A DNA stretch of 56,658 bases from contig JAUJNV010000001.1 in NCBI GenBank assembly GCA_030447945.1, positions 1 to 56,658 on the forward strand, in the 5' to 3' direction. Shown piece after piece: positions 2,878 to 20,987 of the stretch. The translations under genes and the position numbers were made by a program. The stretch is from Fimbriimonas sp. Lineage in GTDB: Bacteria > Armatimonadota > Fimbriimonadia > Fimbriimonadales > Fimbriimonadaceae. Position 1 is the first letter of the stretch; every line of letters begins with the position of its first letter. Below the pieces are notes generated by a model that was given only the letters and a program-made list of their open reading frames with translations, made no database searches and was not told the origin of the DNA.

Positions 2878-2984
2878 TCCGCCTCCCCCCGACCGCAGAG
2901 CCGCCGAGTCCAGACACCTAACACTATATCACGGGAAGAGAAAGACTTCTGCCGTGTTCCGACCCTTTGCCCTAAAATAGACGC

Positions 2985-4151
2985 GTGTCCGTCCACGCCG
3001 TTGCTCGCCTGAACGTCGTGCTGGCCGCGGTCGGCCTCTTCATCGCGGGGATGCTGAGCCTCTCCCACCTCCTCGGCATCGACCTTCCGTGCGGCGTCCA
3101 GTCGGGATGCGACCTCGTGACTCGCAACCCACGCTCCTACGTGCTGGGCCTTCCCATCGCCTACCTCGGCTTCGGCGCCTACACCGTGATCGCCGTCGTC
3201 GCGGCGCTCCGGCTATACGCGGGTGAGCGGCAGGCGGCTCGCCTCCACACGCTCGGCTACGTCCTCTCTGGGATCGGCCTGCTCGTGAGCATCGCTCTGA
3301 CCCTCTTCTCCATCCGCGTCCTCCACGCGGTCTGCAACTGGTGCATCGGCAGCGCCGTCACGATGAGCCTCCTCTTCGCGTCCCACGCGCTCGGCTCGTT
3401 GGCAAAGGGCAAATGGGAGTGGCCCCCGCTCGTCGTCGACGCGGGGCTTCCCTTCGTGCTCGCGGGGATCGTGCTACTCGGCCTGTTTGGCACCGCCGGC
3501 TCGCTCTCCGCCAAGGCTAATCGGGTGGACGTCGACCCGATCCTCCTCGAAGACGTCGGCGCGGCGGAGCTCGCGCCCAAGGGGCTCCATGTCCTGCGCG
3601 GCCGCAAGCCGATCGCCACCCTGGTGATGTTCGCCGACCTCACCTGCCCCACGTGCGCCCGCGTGTTCGGCCGGCTCACCGCGTGGCACGAAACGCGGGG
3701 CGACTTCGATCTCGCCTTCCGCCACCTTCCCCTCCGGACGCACCCCGACGCCCGCCCGGCCGCGCTCCTGAGCGAGATGGCCGCCGAGCGAGGGAAGTTC
3801 TGGCCCTTCGTGACCGAGGCGTACACCAGCGCCTTCGGCTCCTTCGACGATCTCTTCCCTCTCGCCGCCCGCCTGGGCGTGCCGGAGCACGAAGCCCGCC
3901 GCCGCCTGAACGACGGACGTGACCGTACGACGCGCCTCCTCGACCGGGACGCCAAAACCACGCAGCGTCTCGACCTCCATTCCACCCCGACCCTCTTCCT
4001 CATCTCCCCCGGCTACTACCCCGAGCCCCTCGCCTCCTCAGGGGTACCGGAGATGCTCGACAACCTCCACGCGGAGCTCCGGGCCGAAGCGGCGGAGAAG
4101 GCAAGGAAGAAATCTCGCAAGGCAAAGCCCGCCCGCGCTAAGGCTCGATAG
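2985..4151 (+). CDS. VKOR-DsbA-like thioredoxin fusion (disulfide-forming)
   Basis: The N-terminal half (about residues 8-170) has five hydrophobic helices. It carries the vitamin K epoxide reductase cysteines: a loop pair at 36 and 42 (PCGVQSGC) and the membrane CNWC at 117-120. The C-terminal half is a thioredoxin/DsbA-like domain with CPTC at about 221-224 and a late STPTLFLI stretch holding the cis-proline. Bacterial VKOR homologues reoxidise DsbA-type oxidants with quinone, and a fused partner does both steps outside the membrane. At 388 residues it is full length for the fusion. The Lys/Arg-rich tail is probably cytoplasm-like or disordered. Confidence 0.9.
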   Translation: MSVHAVARLNVVLAAVGLFIAGMLSLSHLLGIDLPCGVQSGCDLVTRNPRSYVLGLPIAYLGFGAYTVIAVVAALRLYAGERQAARLHTLGYVLSGIGLLVSIALTLFSIRVLHAVCNWCIGSAVTMSLLFASHALGSLAKGKWEWPPLVVDAGLPFVLAGIVLLGLFGTAGSLSAKANRVDVDPILLEDVGAAELAPKGLHVLRGRKPIATLVMFADLTCPTCARVFGRLTAWHETRGDFDLAFRHLPLRTHPDARPAALLSEMAAERGKFWPFVTEAYTSAFGSFDDLFPLAARLGVPEHEARRRLNDGRDRTTRLLDRDAKTTQRLDLHSTPTLFLISPGYYPEPLASSGVPEMLDNLHAELRAEAAEKARKKSRKAKPARAKAR

Positions 4152-16365: not shown

Positions 16366-17373
16366 CTATCCCTCCCCTGGCCCGCGATTCGTCCGCGACA
16401 AGTCGAGCTTACGCTTCACGCTGAACACGTACTCCGAGGTCCAGTAGACACCCTTAGACGCATCCGGTCTCGGACCCTGGTCCTCCGCTTCTTGCACCCG
16501 CAGGGTCTCGCGTACCTCGGGCGGCTCAAATGGACGCACAAGCTCCATGGCTTCTTCAACGTCGTTCGCGACGACGTTGTACACCGTAAGAAACTCGCTC
16601 CGTCGTTTAACCCTGGGCATCCGCCACGGCCAAACGCCGACCAGAGTGAGCCGCCAAGCCCTCGCCGCGGCCGACCGCTCGTTTCGCACGTCGCGGATCA
16701 CGTGGGCCGCCGTCTCCTCCTGCTTGCGGGCCGCTATCGCGGCCCACGCCGCCGCCAATGCGCCCTCCGAATCCCCGCGTCCGAGCCAGAGAGCCCGTGC
16801 CATCTCTGCCGTCAGCCGAGACACCGCCCCCACCGCGCCCGGCGTGCCCTTCATCACGCTATCCCGCCCGCCCGCCGCGACCCTCAGCGCCTCCTCGTGC
16901 CGCCCCAAGCCGTTTAAAGCGGACACCTTGACATCGGCGACACGCCAAGCCGGCGGGCCTTTCGGGGGCACCGGGACACGGTGCGCAAGCGCCAACGACT
17001 CCTCGTAGCGGCCCTGGCGAAAGTATACGATGGCAATGTTCAAGTCCTCCACCGCCATGTCCGCCTTGGGCAGTGACCGTGCCCGCTCGAAGGCATGCAG
17101 CGCCTCGTCGTACCGTCCTTCGTCCGAGAGGTAGTGCCCGAGGTAGGACCAGAGGATGAAGATCGTGGGGAAGGCCCGGACGCCGTCTTCGAGCACGGCG
17201 ATGGCCCGCCCGCGCTTCCCCATTTCCCAGAGGGCTCGAGCTTCGATCTCGAAGCCCCCGCTATTCCGCCGCCGACGAAGCTCTTGCCCCACGCGCAACG
17301 CCTTGAGGGGCTCGTGCTCGAGCAGCCGGTACCCCAGCTTGATCAGCCCCACGTTGCTGCGCCACCAAAACAA
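16366..17373 (-). CDS. TPR-repeat protein (paralogue 1)
   Basis: The protein has 335 residues with several tetratricopeptide helix pairs, for example YLSDEGRYDEALHAFERA and VYFRQGRYEESLALA. A conserved C-terminal tail (GPRPDASKGVYWTSEYVF) is shared with the next gene. There is no export signal, so it is probably cytoplasmic. It starts 3 bases after the rtcB stop and is followed after one base by its paralogue, which puts both TPR genes in the rsr-rtcB transcription unit. TPR domains are protein-binding scaffolds. A role in RNA repair is suggested only by position. Confidence 0.82.
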   Translation of the reverse strand: MFWWRSNVGLIKLGYRLLEHEPLKALRVGQELRRRRNSGGFEIEARALWEMGKRGRAIAVLEDGVRAFPTIFILWSYLGHYLSDEGRYDEALHAFERARSLPKADMAVEDLNIAIVYFRQGRYEESLALAHRVPVPPKGPPAWRVADVKVSALNGLGRHEEALRVAAGGRDSVMKGTPGAVGAVSRLTAEMARALWLGRGDSEGALAAAWAAIAARKQEETAAHVIRDVRNERSAAARAWRLTLVGVWPWRMPRVKRRSEFLTVYNVVANDVEEAMELVRPFEPPEVRETLRVQEAEDQGPRPDASKGVYWTSEYVFSVKRKLDLSRTNRGPGEG

Positions 17374-17376
17374 GGG

Positions 17377-18552
17377 TCAGTCCTTGTACGGGTCGTCACG
17401 TCGGCGCCCGCCATCGCCACGCCGAGCGGTTTCAGGCGGTGGAGGATCTCCACCGTCCCCGAGTGGTGCGAGAGCACCCCGTCGAGGGGACTTGTAGACC
17501 TCCGGAGCCTCGTCGGGCGCGCGCCGCGAAGCTCGATCCCCTTGTCCCGCATCCGCTGCTGCACGGCCTCCCAATCCACCCGCCCCGCGCTGATGCGGGT
17601 GGGCACGCCCTTGACGAAGCGCATCTTCCCGGCGGCTTGGGTGCGGCTCATGACGCGGCCCGCGCCGTGGACCGTCGAGTACAGCCCTTCCTTCGAACCC
17701 GGAGTCCACTCTCCAGCACCACCGAGGCGCCCGCCATCGTCGCCCCCACAAAGCCTCGCTGGCCAGGAAAGGCCGGAGTGCAGCCCCAGGACCACCCATA
17801 TCGACCCCGAAGTGGCTCTCCCGCCAGGCGTAGTTGTGGTGGTTGTGGACGGAGTCCAGCTCCTTCGCGCCGAGAATCTCCAAGACCTTCAGGCACACCA
17901 GGTCGCGCCTGGCGCGGCGCGTACTCGCCCGCCAGCTCCATCGCCTTCAGGTAGTCCTGCCCGAGGTCGGAATCGTCCGGAAGAGCGTCGGCGCCGCGTC
18001 CATGCTGCCCTCGGAGGGCCTTGTCATCGAAGGCCTTGCCCTTGGCGAGGGCCAGGAAGCCGGATGCGGTGCGGTGCCCGAACCCGCGCGAGCCGAAGTG
18101 GACGCCGATCCAGAGCCGCTCGCGTTGATCCTTGAAGAGGTCCACGTAGTGGTTCCCCGATCCGACGGTGCCGAGCTGCTGGCGCGCCATTTGGATCATC
18201 TTCCGCTGCGGCCGAACTCCGCGCTGAAGATCTTGTCCAGCACCGGATGGTCCACCGGGTCCGGGTTCGGGCGGCCGACGCCGAAGCCGATCTGGCGCAC
18301 GATGTCGCTCATCACCTGCTTGATGTCCACGTCCGCCGCCATCGCGTCGGTCAGCACCTTGTTGCCGCAGCCGATATCGTAGCCAACACCGCTGGGCGAG
18401 ACATGGTCCGGGTAGCCGACGGCGCCTCCGATCGGCTGGCTGTAGCCGGGGTGGTGGTCCGCGCACAGCACGGCCGCCTCGGCCTCCGTCGTACACCGGT
18501 TCAATTGCTCCAGGGGCCCGGGGTCGACCGGGCCAAACGTCTTTAATCGCAT
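17377..18552 (-). pseudogene. rtcB: RtcB tRNA/RNA ligase (3'-phosphate), frameshifted
   Basis: ATG 18552 starts MRLKTFGPVD. The order of motifs is that of RtcB: CADHHPGYSQPIGG, SPSGVGYDIGCGNK (Mn-binding Cys), GSGNHYVDLF, HFGSRGFGH, STVHGAGRVMSR (the His that carries GMP), HSGTVEILHRLKPLGVAMAG and a final DDPYKD at the stop at 17377. The span equals about 391 codons, the normal size. Several indels between 17450 and 18200 break the frame but every motif is present. RtcB joins RNA 2',3'-cyclic phosphate or 3'-phosphate ends to 5'-OH ends using GTP. It follows rsr, as in known bacterial RNA-repair operons. Confidence 0.87.
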
Positions 18553-18562
18553 TTTATTCCTC

Positions 18563-18694
18563 GTGGTGGGTGGTGAGTAGTGGGTGGTGGATCGTTTGTG
18601 GTTGGTCGTTGGTCGTGGGCGGTAAGTAGTGGAAGTAATCGGGCCGGCGGTTCGCACCACCCACTACCACCCACTACCCACTACCCACTACTCG
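18563..18694. repeat. Word-arm hairpin a (GTAGTGGG words)
   Basis: The left arm (18563-18590) is built of GTGGTGGGT/GAGTAGTGGGT words. The right arm (18655-18694) is their complement, repeated (CCCACTACCCACTACCC). A middle part with related TGGTTGGTCG words lies between. It fills the gap between rsr and rtcB, and the rsr stop codon abuts the right arm. Confidence 0.8.
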
Positions 18695-20254
18695 CTACCT
18701 GGCGAACTCGGCGAGCGCCTGTGGACCGTCGCGTCGAAGCCGGCGACGTCCAGCATGCCCTTGTCCTTCGGATCCGCGATGCTGAATCGGTTGGCGGCCA
18801 TTGCCACCACGACCAGCTTCGCCGCGATCCCGTCCGCTCCCGGTACTCCTGGAGCGCCTGCGCCGGGTGACCTTGCCGTACCAGGTCTCGTTGTCCGTGT
18901 AGACCACGAACACGTCCGCCTGGACCCGGTTCTCTATCGCCCACAGCATCGGCAGCGCGCAGTCCGTCGACCCGGAAGGCCATGTTCTGCGTCCGCTTCA
19001 GCGTCGCCGAGGCGCATCCTCGGCGAAAGCGGCAACGGGCGGAACCCTTGACGCGAACGCCATCGGCGTGCACGCGGGCTCCGTCGCCAAGGTCACCATC
19101 GCCATCGCGGCGGCGCCCCCGGCCGGAGTCATCGGCGACCCTGCCACGCTTCCGCAGCTCATCGAGCCCGAGACGTCCATGCCCAGCACGTACCGCTTGC
19201 CCGTTGGCTCCACGTTCGCGAACGCGGCGTAGAACGCTCGGTCGAGCGCGTCGATCACCGCCGGCACCGGTACCCACTGCCCGAGCCGCGCACGCCCTTG
19301 CCCGCCGCGTAGGTCCGCAGCGCGATCAGCAAAGCCATCGGGTGGACGCGCGCCCTCTTCAAGCGCTCGTCGTCTCCCAGTTCCGCCACCACGCGCTGCG
19401 TCGCCCCGTTCCCCGGCGCGAGCAAGCCCACGCGCGGGTCAGCGGTGGCGAGGTTGCGCACCATCGCGGTCCGGCATGCCTTCGAGCAACGCCTCCCAGA
19501 CCTCGGCCCGGGCGAGCAGCTCCGTCGGCACCGCCTCGCGGGGCACCCGCAGCTCGCGCACGATCGTCGCCGCCTCGGAGGGCGTCGCCTCCTTCAGCCG
19601 CATCGTCGCCTCGACCAGCGGAAGCGAGCCCGTGAGCTCGGCGTCCACGACCCACTTGTACAGGACCTTGTGCGCCCGGACGCGGGCACCGGGTGCGCGA
19701 GCCGGAGCAAGTCGCGGTGGCTCCAGCCACCCCGCTGCCCGTACTTACGACCTGGTGCTCCAGGCTTACGGCGGAGCGCTCGTTGTACCAGCGCTCGACC
19801 GCGCGCCGGAGCCCTCGGCCCCAGCCCCGCAGCCCGTCGCACGCCCGGCGAACGCGAACAGGTGCGTACCGATGCGGCAAACCCTGGGCACGGCGGCGAA
19901 GGCGAGCGTCCGGGTCTGGACATCGCCCAGCGACGCGGCGAGCGCCAGCGCAAAGACCGCCGGGCCGTTCTTCGGCGCCCGGCCGCTTTCGCTGATCTCC
20001 GCGATGCGGGCGACGACGCGCGCGCCATCCTCCCGAATTGCTTCGAGTGCGTTCTCGATTGCAAGCTCGAGGGTGAGCTTGCGCTCCCGATGTAGTAGGT
20101 CCCATCCTCGCTTCCGAGGACAGGAACCTGATCGAGCAGCGCCCAGCGATCGACGGTCCAGCGTAGCCACCCGCCGAGTTGGGCACCCGGCCCGCACCCG
20201 AATCGGCTGCGACTGAGAGGTCGCCTTCTTGTTGAAGAGCTTGGCGTAGTTCAT
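18695..20254 (-). pseudogene. rsr: Rsr, TROVE/vWA Ro60-like RNA-binding protein, frameshifted
   Basis: ATG 20254 (upstream AAAGGA) starts MNYAKLFNKKATSQSQPI, then SAGGYA and ERKLTLELAIENALEAI: the start of the Ro60 TROVE ring. Further on come RGWGRGLRRAVERWYNE, GGWSHRDLLRLAHP, MVRNLATADPRVGLLAPG and LLIALRTYAAGKG. The C-terminal von Willebrand A domain has VLGMDVSGSMS, an intact DxSxS metal site, and ends LAEFAR at 18695. The span equals 520 codons, the normal Ro60 length, although several indels shift the frame. Ro60 binds misfolded RNAs in its central cavity and Y RNAs on its outer surface; in Deinococcus it works with exoribonucleases. Y RNA genes lie just upstream. Confidence 0.85.
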
Positions 20255-20304
20255 TCCTTTCACCTCTATGGGGTCGTGGCGACGCCATCCCGGCGACGCG
20301 GGAG

Positions 20305-20340
20305 ACAGACAAGCGCCCCACCCTGATACGGGTGGGGCGC
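20305..20340 (-). terminator. Rho-independent terminator ending the Y RNA array
   Basis: On the minus strand an 11-bp stem GCGCCCCACCC / GGGTGGGGCGC with loop GTATCA is followed by TTGTCTGTCT. It lies after the last Y RNA and 50 bases before the rsr ATG. The array is therefore probably a separate transcript, or read-through controls rsr. Confidence 0.85.
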
Positions 20341-20352
20341 TGACGACGAAAG

Positions 20353-20485
20353 CGCGCGGGCAAAGGAGCGCGGCTCGCTATTCTTACGGGCGCTCAACCC
20401 TGAGCTACGCGCCACGGGCGCGCACGACCGGACTCGAACCGGTCTCCTCCCGTTCCCTGATAACCGAACCGCTACGGCCCGCGCG
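20353..20485 (-). ncRNA. Y RNA-like gene 5 (YrlA type, tRNA-like module)
   Basis: The closing stem is CGCGCGGGC (20485-20477) with GCCCGCGCG (20361-20353). It is followed by the Ro-binding bulge CGTAG opposite CCTTTG, and an upper stem GCGGTTCG / CGAGCCGC. Next comes GGTTATC, as in other Y RNAs. The loop carries a perfect T-arm (20443-20427, loop TTCGAGT), an acceptor-like stem, and a D-arm (GCTCAGGGTTGAGC, 20405-20392). The T-arm comes before the D-arm, so the tRNA-like part is circularly permuted, as in known bacterial YrlA RNAs. A terminator follows within 15 bases. Confidence 0.82.
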
Positions 20486-20497
20486 ACGACGAGAAGG

Positions 20498-20635
20498 CCG
20501 CGGGCAAAGTCGGGCGCTGGAAGATGTCTCCGTGGGATCCATCCCCGGATTAACAGTCCGGGTGCAGCTTAAGTCCACATCTTCCGCCGAAGCGGAGCCG
20601 CTGCTAACGGTAACCAGTGCCTCCGGCCCGCACGG
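20498..20635 (-). ncRNA. Y RNA-like gene 4 (with Asn-type anticodon arm)
   Basis: The closing stem GCGGGC pairs with GCCCGC. The bulge strands are CGGAG and CGACTTT, and the upper stem GGCACTGG pairs with CCAGCGCC. GGTTACC stands in place of GGTTATC. The long loop contains AAGATGT / ACATCTT arms enclosing a perfect 5-bp anticodon-like hairpin, CCGGA-CTGTTAA-TCCGG (20561-20545), identical in loop to tRNA-Asn (GTT). No TTCGA T-loop is visible. It is the most divergent member. Confidence 0.62.
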
Positions 20636-20646
20636 GCCAGAACCTA

Positions 20647-20741
20647 CCGTGCGGGCAGTGACGGCGTGGGATCAGGCTAGATGGCCCTTGCCGGACTCGA
20701 ACCGACTAACGACCGATAACCCCGCGCTTCGGCCCGCACGG
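20647..20741 (-). ncRNA. Y RNA-like gene 3 (T-arm only)
   Basis: A perfect 10-bp closing stem CCGTGCGGGC (20741-20732) pairs with GCCCGCACGG (20656-20647). It is followed by CGAAG opposite CACTG, then GGGGTTATC. The loop has a T-arm-like hairpin GTCGG-TTCGAGT-CCGGC (20706-20690) and a small GGC/GCC hairpin, but no D-arm that I can see. It is about 95 nt, intermediate in size. Confidence 0.7.
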
Positions 20742-20750
20742 CCAAAGATG

Positions 20751-20818
20751 TGCGCAGGCAAGTGGATGCACCTGGGCGTGATCTTTTCAAGAGATAACCC
20801 AGCGCTTCGGCCCGCGCA
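20751..20818 (-). ncRNA. Y RNA-like gene 2, minimal form
   Basis: The closing stem TGCGCGGGC pairs with GCCTGCGCA. The Ro-binding strands CCGAAGCGC and TGCATCCACTTG match the conserved vertebrate and bacterial Y RNA motif (CGAAG opposite ACTTG). GGGTTATC follows. The loop is only a short hairpin (ATCTCTTGAAAAGAT). At about 68 nt it has the Ro-binding stem but no tRNA-like module. Confidence 0.78.
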
Positions 20819-20846
20819 AAGACGATATGGAAGATGACGAGCGTGC

Positions 20847-20973
20847 GGACAAGGGAATGACCGTGGGCAAGTGCTCTATCCATCTGAGCTACCCGGGGCC
20901 TTTCGGACCCAGGGCCGGACTCGAACCGGCGACCTCTCGATTAACAGTCGATAACCCACGAGCTTCGGCCAGT
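20847..20973 (-). ncRNA. Y RNA-like gene 1 (YrlA type, tRNA-Asn-like module)
   Basis: GGCCGAAGC (20970-20962) faces CCTTG (20854-20850), the Ro-binding bulge. The stem CGTGGG (20960-20955) pairs with CCCACG (20867-20862). GTGGGTTATC is identical to the human Y4 segment. Inside, in order: an anticodon-like hairpin TCGA-CTGTTAA-TCGA; T-arm GCCGGTTCGAGTCCGGC (20930-20914); an acceptor-like stem capped by GAAA (20904-20901); and a D-arm (20889-20873). This is tRNA opened between D-arm and anticodon arm and closed at the acceptor end, the YrlA topology. The outermost stem is weak. Confidence 0.78.
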
Positions 20974-20987
20974 ATCACTAACCGTAT

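Follow-up and report, generated by a model that had tools for sequence, protein, structure and literature searches.

Five Y-RNA-like units upstream of rsr and rtcB, three with an anticodon-like loop: predicted Ro-bound RNAs and possible tRNA decoys

The major finding in the window, by which we mean the whole stretch of 56,658 nt that was analyzed, was a series of five Y-RNA-like units on the minus strand, followed by the Ro60 gene (rsr) and then by the RNA ligase gene rtcB. A Y RNA array beside rsr is an already known kind of arrangement. Judged from the sequence, the head of the first unit (Y1) has the part order of a circularly permuted tRNA, three of the five units (Y1, Y2, and Y4) carry a seven-base loop resembling an anticodon loop, and relatives of Y1 have an anticodon stem that covaries around a changeable triplet. 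The five units are predicted to be Ro-bound RNAs, and we infer that their heads may act as tRNA decoys, a reading that we prefer while regarding it as tentative. The features are as follows.

20840..20977, minus strand: Y1, Y-RNA-like unit; head in the shape of a complete, circularly permuted tRNA; lower stem weak
20937..20951, minus strand: putative anticodon arm of Y1, UCGA (20951-20948), loop CUGUUAA (20947-20941), UCGA (20940-20937); triplet GUU
20914..20930, minus strand: T arm of Y1, GCCGG-UUCGAGU-CCGGC
20873..20913, minus strand: acceptor halves of Y1 (20913-20907 and 20898-20892) with linker CCGAAAGG, then UA and the D arm GCUCAGAUGGAUAGAGC (20889-20873)
20751..20818, minus strand: Y2, short Y-RNA-like unit; head a single anticodon-loop-like hairpin, AUCU-CUUGAAA-AGAU (20795-20781)
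20646..20742, minus strand: Y3, Y-RNA-like unit; T arm at 20706-20690, no clear D arm; partial tRNA mimic
20493..20640, minus strand: Y4, Y-RNA-like unit; head includes CCCGGA-CUGUUAA-UCCGGG (20562-20544), triplet GUU
20353..20485, minus strand: Y5, Y-RNA-like unit; permuted tRNA-like head of the YrlA layout
20313..20340, minus strand: GC-rich hairpin GCGCCCCACCC-GUAUCA-GGGUGGGGCGC between the array and rsr
18692..20254, minus strand: rsr, Ro60/TROVE protein gene; reading frame with many breaks, 3′ end approximate
17345..18553, minus strand: rtcB, RNA ligase gene; frame broken in several places, ends approximate

All five units share the 5′ motif (T/G)GG(C/T)CG-N7-12-GGTTA(T/C)C, with starts at 20971, 20813, 20735, 20629, and 20480 on the minus strand, and no further copy was found on either strand of the window. 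The chance rate in 50 dinucleotide shuffles was 0.02 per strand, and this value, together with a 300-to-1 bias of the motif to the rsr strand in relatives, ruled out a chance origin of the array. A pattern of fixed spacing was too rigid for the window (2 matches versus 0.59 expected). A coding explanation was rejected as well: a plus-strand open frame of 189 aa overlaps the array, and the minus-strand motif and folds account for the stretch. The array is flanked by an alcohol-dehydrogenase-type gene on one side and rsr on the other, and no sigma-70 promoter for it was found on the array strand. The initial annotation had placed five minus-strand units between 20353 and 20973, ahead of the Ro60 gene and then rtcB, and this was confirmed. 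It had also described a strong terminator after the array, which was not upheld, as the hairpin at 20340-20313 has no U-run and no terminator was called on this strand.

The units Y2, Y3, Y4, and Y5 were found to fold into a lower stem, a bulge, and an upper stem, with z scores of −3.09, −3.35, −2.01, and −2.50, respectively. Y1 has an upper stem and a poor lower stem, and its fold was no better than shuffles (z = +0.45). The closing stem with a Ro-type bulge claimed for every unit was thus seen in four of the five (Y2 to Y5), each of which folded better than its shuffles, and Y1 does not fold in this way. The further claim of ACTTG or a variant opposite the bulge failed for Y3, which has CACUG rather than ACUUG. 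In the Rfam scan of the window, zero families reached the curated score. Matches below the cut-off were obtained to YrlA (RF02553; cut-off, 69 bits) for Y1 (40.5 bits, E 2.6e-7), Y5 (24.5 bits), and Y3 (15.3 bits). The YrlA cut-off was likewise unmet by relatives in loci L002, L003, L008, and L053, and L001 gave no YrlA match at E up to 0.01. The Rfam tRNA model scored 25.0 bits on part of Y1, below its 29.

Of the eukaryotic models, the nematode stem-bulge RNA (RF01656) matched Y2 at 30.5 bits (E 4.5e-4), below the curated 38, and shares the CCGAAG bulge, the UGGGUUAUC upper stem, and a 3′-side CUUG, whereas the vertebrate Y RNA model (RF00019) gave no match to the array at E up to 10. The GUGGGUUAUC of the array units is presumably also present in human Y4. 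A review states that the Y RNAs of bacteria share no homology with the vertebrate clades (PMC4726728).

The head of Y1 runs in the order anticodon arm, variable region, T arm, closed acceptor stem, and D arm, with 6 of 7 acceptor pairs and 4 of 4 D-arm pairs formed. When it was un-permuted, ARAGORN read it as tRNA-Asn(GUU); in native order, ARAGORN found no tRNA in the window. A permuted tRNA was not seen in Y2 or Y4. The head hairpin of Y2 had pair probabilities of 0.51 to 0.55 in the energy model, and the anticodon-loop-like hairpin of Y4 appears in its minimum-energy fold. In the minimum-energy fold of Y5, the stem replacing the anticodon stem continues into the Y stem and the anticodon loop is absent. 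Neither the permuted tRNA nor the anticodon-like loops were part of the initial annotation.

Among the closest known systems is YrlA of the Salmonella rsr-yrlBA-rtcBA operon, which likewise lies beside rsr with rtcB nearby, has a 5′/3′ stem, and carries a tRNA-like head whose T, D, and closed acceptor parts stand in circularly permuted order. The array differs from it in having five units and in its Rfam scores under 69 bits. In the Rfam YrlA model, the anticodon stem merges into the Y stem without an anticodon loop, and Y5 is of that kind; Y1, unlike YrlA, has its opening between tRNA positions 26 and 27 and appears to retain the anticodon arm in full. The permutation in YrlA-type heads had already been described (PMC11472068), as had the resemblance of the YrlA head to D, T, and acceptor arms (PMC8394870). 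In the limited literature covered, which was without some key papers on bacterial Y RNAs (Chen 2014; Wang 2018; Sim and Wolin 2018), no description was found of rRNA-hairpin heads or of a permuted head in which a separate anticodon arm is present and the triplet varies; such arms may already have been published.

The identity of the neighboring genes was deduced despite the broken frames. One rsr piece matched Pfam TROVE weakly and under the cut-off (E 0.0089), and a translation carried across the breaks, with X marking each frame join, matched full-length TROVE proteins, the best at 64% identity and those named Armatimonadota or Fimbriimonas at 56 to 59%. An Rsr of this type is present in Fimbriimonas ginsengisoli, a culturable relative. 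The breaks in rsr and rtcB lie at 17300-20260, and intact frames elsewhere in the window include a 350-aa dehydrogenase and a 559-aa ORF. Sequencing errors are the simplest reason for the breaks, and decay is possible; the assembly may thus carry indel errors, and some letters of the Y units may be wrong. Low-complexity repeats of the GTAGTGGGTA and CACCACCCA types occupy the gap between rsr and rtcB (window 18560-18700). Two intact loci in records named Armatimonadetes (L001 and L008) have the order Y-Y-rsr-rtcB, with the L001 genes confirmed by Pfam. Within the flanks examined, rtcB was found at 7 of 80 genome loci, some by weak matches, and at 0 of 80 viral loci, so that RtcB is not a fixed partner.

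The relatives were drawn from 160 rsr loci obtained with an alignment of 21 Rsr proteins, namely the best 80 of 375 from named genomes and the best 80 of 430 from viral contigs. The 5′ motif occurred in 300 copies on the rsr strand, at 103 of the 160 loci, versus one copy on the opposite strand, which bears out a Y-RNA-like array upstream of rsr. Under a single counting rule, arrays of at least five units were present at 10 of the 80 loci from genomes and at 4 of the 80 from viral contigs, with a maximum of nine; these counts are low because the finder misses units (it found three of five in the window). Five units are therefore a large array in the upper tail, neither singular nor a record, and the earlier description of an expanded set is fair, although such sets are not unique. 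Across ten whole genomes, by our count, 31 of 45 exact motif matches fell in the rsr stretch and 14 occurred elsewhere, singly, whereas the reversed pattern gave 8 matches. In this exact form, the motif was absent from the rsr stretch of one genome (G010).

Pattern searches were extended to two phyla. In Armatimonadota, 42 places in 31 of 291 genomes were obtained, some of them plainly by chance, versus 9 for the reversed pattern as judged by eye; the loops of the heads from whole genomes read CUGAAAC, CUGUAAC, CUAAGGC, CUGUCAC (twice), CUAUCAC, and CUAUGAC. In Chloroflexota, 39 places were found in 301 genomes, of which 18 belong to a single family. This family has a conserved 39-mer, GGTTACCGGGGGTGCTCCCCTCGGTCGTGGGTTCGAATC, with 14 exact places and 4 near variants (e.g., G777:C2:53795-53833), which may derive from a normal tRNA gene. 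When two Y RNAs were used as DNA queries against 335 and 291 genomes, many short matches to the tRNA-like parts were obtained, presumably from real tRNA genes; the loci from these searches entered only the sister-RNA comparison described below, and one head (L162) was added.

The detailed assignment of the anticodon arm was made on aligned heads. A T-loop was found within 75 nt of 160 of the 424 distinct 5′ motifs, and the distance from GUUAUC to the T-loop peaked at 21, 22, and 23 nt (20, 22, and 29 cases, respectively). The alignment held the 29 heads at spacing 23, which were picked blind to the arm, and Y1, which is of the 23-nt class and was added by hand because its first letters escaped the motif search; 29 rows were distinct. 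From GUUA on, heads of this class have a stem of four pairs with a loop of seven bases, followed by a variable region, a T arm, an acceptor stem shut by a short loop, and a D arm, which is the order of a tRNA whose opening lies between positions 26 and 27. In three other heads (L036 6647, L051 7253, and L065 7408), GUUAUC and the T-loop are 38 to 41 nt apart, a distance suggesting that the tRNAs mimicked there have a long variable arm.

The putative anticodon stem had four pairs in 17 of the 30 heads, three in 9, one in 3, and none in 1, and over the 29 distinct rows it was paired in 81.9% of cells. The pairs 30-40 and 31-39 were formed in 52 of 60 cases, whereas 2,000 permutations averaged 26.7 and reached 39 at most. 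The covariation score for the arm and T arm was 0.561, compared with 0.142 for shuffles and 0.057 to 0.114 for slid versions, although two of five whole-structure measures were matched by shuffles (double-change pairs in 75 of 500, further pair types in 21 of 500). Covariation, which the initial annotation had proposed to seek in related loci, was observed for the anticodon stem in the 29 relatives and Y1. Within the loop, U33 was present in 24 of 30 heads and a purine at position 37 in 26 of 30, while positions 34 to 36 were near-random (1.8 to 1.9 bits versus 0.8 to 0.9 at 33 and 37). The same bases could form another helix between a conserved CU and the GG of AGG, and this was rejected in place of the anticodon stem because it was paired in 70.7% of cells rather than 81.9% and showed 7 double-change cells rather than 25. 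Under the energy model, pair probabilities in the Y1 arm averaged 0.07 at a cost of 0.9 kcal/mol, and the probability exceeded 0.3 in 5 of 30 heads. Covariation was provisionally weighed above energy folding because energy models omit tRNA tertiary contacts. For Y1 itself, covariation would place the unit in the class with a separate anticodon arm, and energy folding disfavors the arm.

Permuted tRNA genes occur in algae and archaea, and the heads resemble them in their rotated part order and loop-joined acceptor ends. The units might be such genes, with the Y stem excised, a circle sealed by RtcB, and working tRNAs produced once the acceptor loop is opened. Acceptor and D arms scored above the 99th percentile of shuffles in 68 of 161 T-loop heads (Y1 included), and ARAGORN read 39 of these 68, once un-permuted, as tRNAs with about 20 triplets, a count with no shuffled comparison set; four of the 39 lack a clear triplet, and the one in L115 looks like a normal tRNA gene. 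The adjacency of rtcB to rsr in the window, L001, and L008 also fits, as does a match of the Rfam tRNA model (33.2 bits; cut-off, 29) at L053 640-781, which bridges two neighboring Y units and takes the D part from one and the T part from the other. However, pair 27-43 was mismatched in 29 of 30 heads, the heads are joined to a Y stem, which is the conserved part, short units have no tRNA body, and no sign of tRNA maturation was seen. Triplet identity agreed with the identity of the tRNA body in 2 of 21 heads, which is the chance level (P 0.51). We consider this origin very improbable. A working tRNA was rejected on the absence of a native-order call, the 27-43 mismatch, which leaves a five-pair anticodon stem unformed, and the disagreement of triplet and body; the last also excluded faithful copies of particular tRNAs, so that no head was shown to mimic a given tRNA faithfully.

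The abundance of tRNA genes near rsr raises a different origin, in which Y RNAs lying amid tRNA genes gain, by recombination, tRNA pieces that then decay, the arms having no role. Calls of tRNA genes numbered 683 in 74 of 161 scanned sequences, with up to 32 per locus. At L009, L010, L016, L023, L056, L062, L142, and others, from several phyla, rsr and the Y units lie amid 25 to 32 tRNA genes of the same strand, L142 being a viral contig with 29. Such leftovers would account for the partial state of Y3 and Y4, for the disfavor of the energy model toward the arm, and for the 13 of 30 heads without one or more stem pairs, a count that also stands against a decoy. The anticodon-stem covariation, moreover, may be partly inherited from different parent tRNAs. 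Pure inheritance is countered by the fit of the 3′ strand of the stem, which reads as refitted to U28-C29, two bases dictated by the Y motif. G41 together with a purine at position 42 was found in 18 of 30 heads versus 134 of 681 tRNA calls of the same loci, 32 of which overlap Y motifs (Fisher p 3e-6).

Two further observations are hard to reconcile with decaying pieces. Among 327 units, seven-base hairpins with U33 and R37 numbered 126 versus 55 in shuffles, and a comparable excess was absent for loops of 5, 6, 8, and 9 nt. At least one such hairpin occurred in 105 of the 327 units, including Y1, Y2, and Y4, some surely by chance. Of the 264 motifs without a T-loop, 24 have a four-pair stem and a seven-base loop at GUUAUC, with U33 in 17; five of the seven others are 23S-like or have A33. 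The second observation concerns the sister RNAs L028 and L029 of Verrucomicrobiia, in which 4 of the 7 loop bases differ but 1 of the 119 positions elsewhere, so that the loop was swapped while the remainder was kept. Over 73 overlapping and non-independent sister pairs, 196 of 450 loop positions differed, compared with 1,080 of 8,134 in the rest. Sisters in Chloroflexota have an invariant loop, as in L042 and L051 (0 of 5 versus 3 of 127 elsewhere). An origin as functionless leftovers was therefore judged unlikely.

Some heads carry rRNA letters in place of the anticodon arm. The 23S rRNA letters CCGTAACTATAACGG...CCTAAGGTAGCGAA were found there at ten loci, or eight under a common rule; six were obtained with the unit finder (L009 at 2905-3081, L010, L016, L021 at 3435-3626, L023, and L035, with poor 3′ ends in L021 and L023) and four through the motif (L014, L019, L020, and L069). 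Nine of the records are of Myxococcota type or deltaproteobacterial, and one (L021) is named Armatimonadota. The L009 head matched Escherichia coli 23S rRNA over 36 bases at 94.4%. The copied stretch is, we take it, helix 69 and the sequence just after it. Other odd heads were observed as well. A unit upstream of rsr in L002 (4410-4445) gave a weak match to the tmRNA model (20.3 bits; cut-off, 47), with a T arm and CAGCTCCACCA, and its head is perhaps tmRNA-like. The head sequence CTTCGGCGGAAAGGCCG(G/A)CC is common to units at L013 4571, L053 1181, L064 4670, and L075 2427.

Pseudouridine synthases act at both of the mimicked parts, the anticodon arm and 23S helix 69. One role for the heads could accordingly be to recruit RNA-modifying enzymes or to compete for them, whether pseudouridine synthases, dihydrouridine synthases, or anticodon-loop enzymes, with Rsr particles checking or tuning tRNA and rRNA modification. 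TruB and DusA are reported to use YrlA as a substrate (PMC8394870). No gene for such an enzyme, however, was present among the 13 neighboring proteins scanned in the window and four loci. Many anticodon-loop enzymes also need fixed bases, and here the triplet varies. A role in modification seems unlikely, although less so than permuted tRNA genes.

A rival of greater weight holds that the units are ordinary tethers or gates of Rsr, with the lower stem binding Rsr, the heads binding PNPase (RYPER) and blocking or opening the Rsr ring, the anticodon loops incidental, and the copies tuning dose or choice of partner. Rsr binds the lower stem of Y RNAs, and a Y RNA can tether PNPase (PMC8394870 and PMC8058203). 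The Deinococcus radiodurans Y RNA of RYPER (Rsr-Y RNA-PNPase) resembles the array in lying beside rsr and, by motif, in its Rsr-type lower stem; in the window, the heads differ among units. The tether is the function of bacterial Y RNAs known by experiment (PMC7790460, PMC8394870, and PMC8058203), and it agrees with the T, D, and acceptor parts in Y5 and Y1 and with the mismatch of triplet and body. It leaves unexplained why an anticodon-like hairpin is kept in short units without a T arm, why U33 and A37 are mostly constant while positions 34 to 36 change, and why some heads copy 23S rRNA. We regard it as a serious if somewhat doubtful alternative, placed close behind the decoy because it is backed by experiment in other species.

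The mimicry of tRNA, of an anticodon arm, and in some heads of a 23S hairpin points to the binding or decoying of enzymes rather than to pairing with targets, and the initial proposal that the units are guides steering Ro60 to different RNAs found no direct support. Taken together, its observations were partly confirmed and its interpretation partly supported. In the decoy reading that we prefer, the Y units would be transcribed, Rsr would bind them through the lower stem and bulge in the manner of known Y RNAs, and each head would display a tRNA body, an anticodon arm, or both outside the Rsr particle. Anticodon nucleases, or other enzymes that read the anticodon loop, would then be occupied by the displayed anticodon arms or would cut them, so that real tRNAs are spared, and the adjoining RtcB would rejoin broken ends. 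In some lineages, the heads might decoy enzymes acting on helix 69. In Salmonella, Hughes et al. reported tRNA cleavage in anticodon loops and offered YrlA as a possible competitive inhibitor of the anticodon nuclease, while reporting that YrlA is not a substrate of that nuclease (PMC7790460).

A broader and more speculative extension, to which we give limited credence, is that Ro particles in many bacterial phyla display swappable look-alikes of decoding sites (23S helix 69 and anticodon arms whose triplet differs from species to species while the RNA is otherwise conserved) that bait ribonucleases, the array being a record of the tRNA- and rRNA-cutting attacks met by a lineage. The 23S heads would extend the mimicry from tRNA to the decoding site, and the presence of anticodon arms with many triplets makes the decoy idea directly testable by a triplet swap. 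The finding bears on the role of bacterial Y RNAs beside RNA repair genes, the question of Hughes et al.
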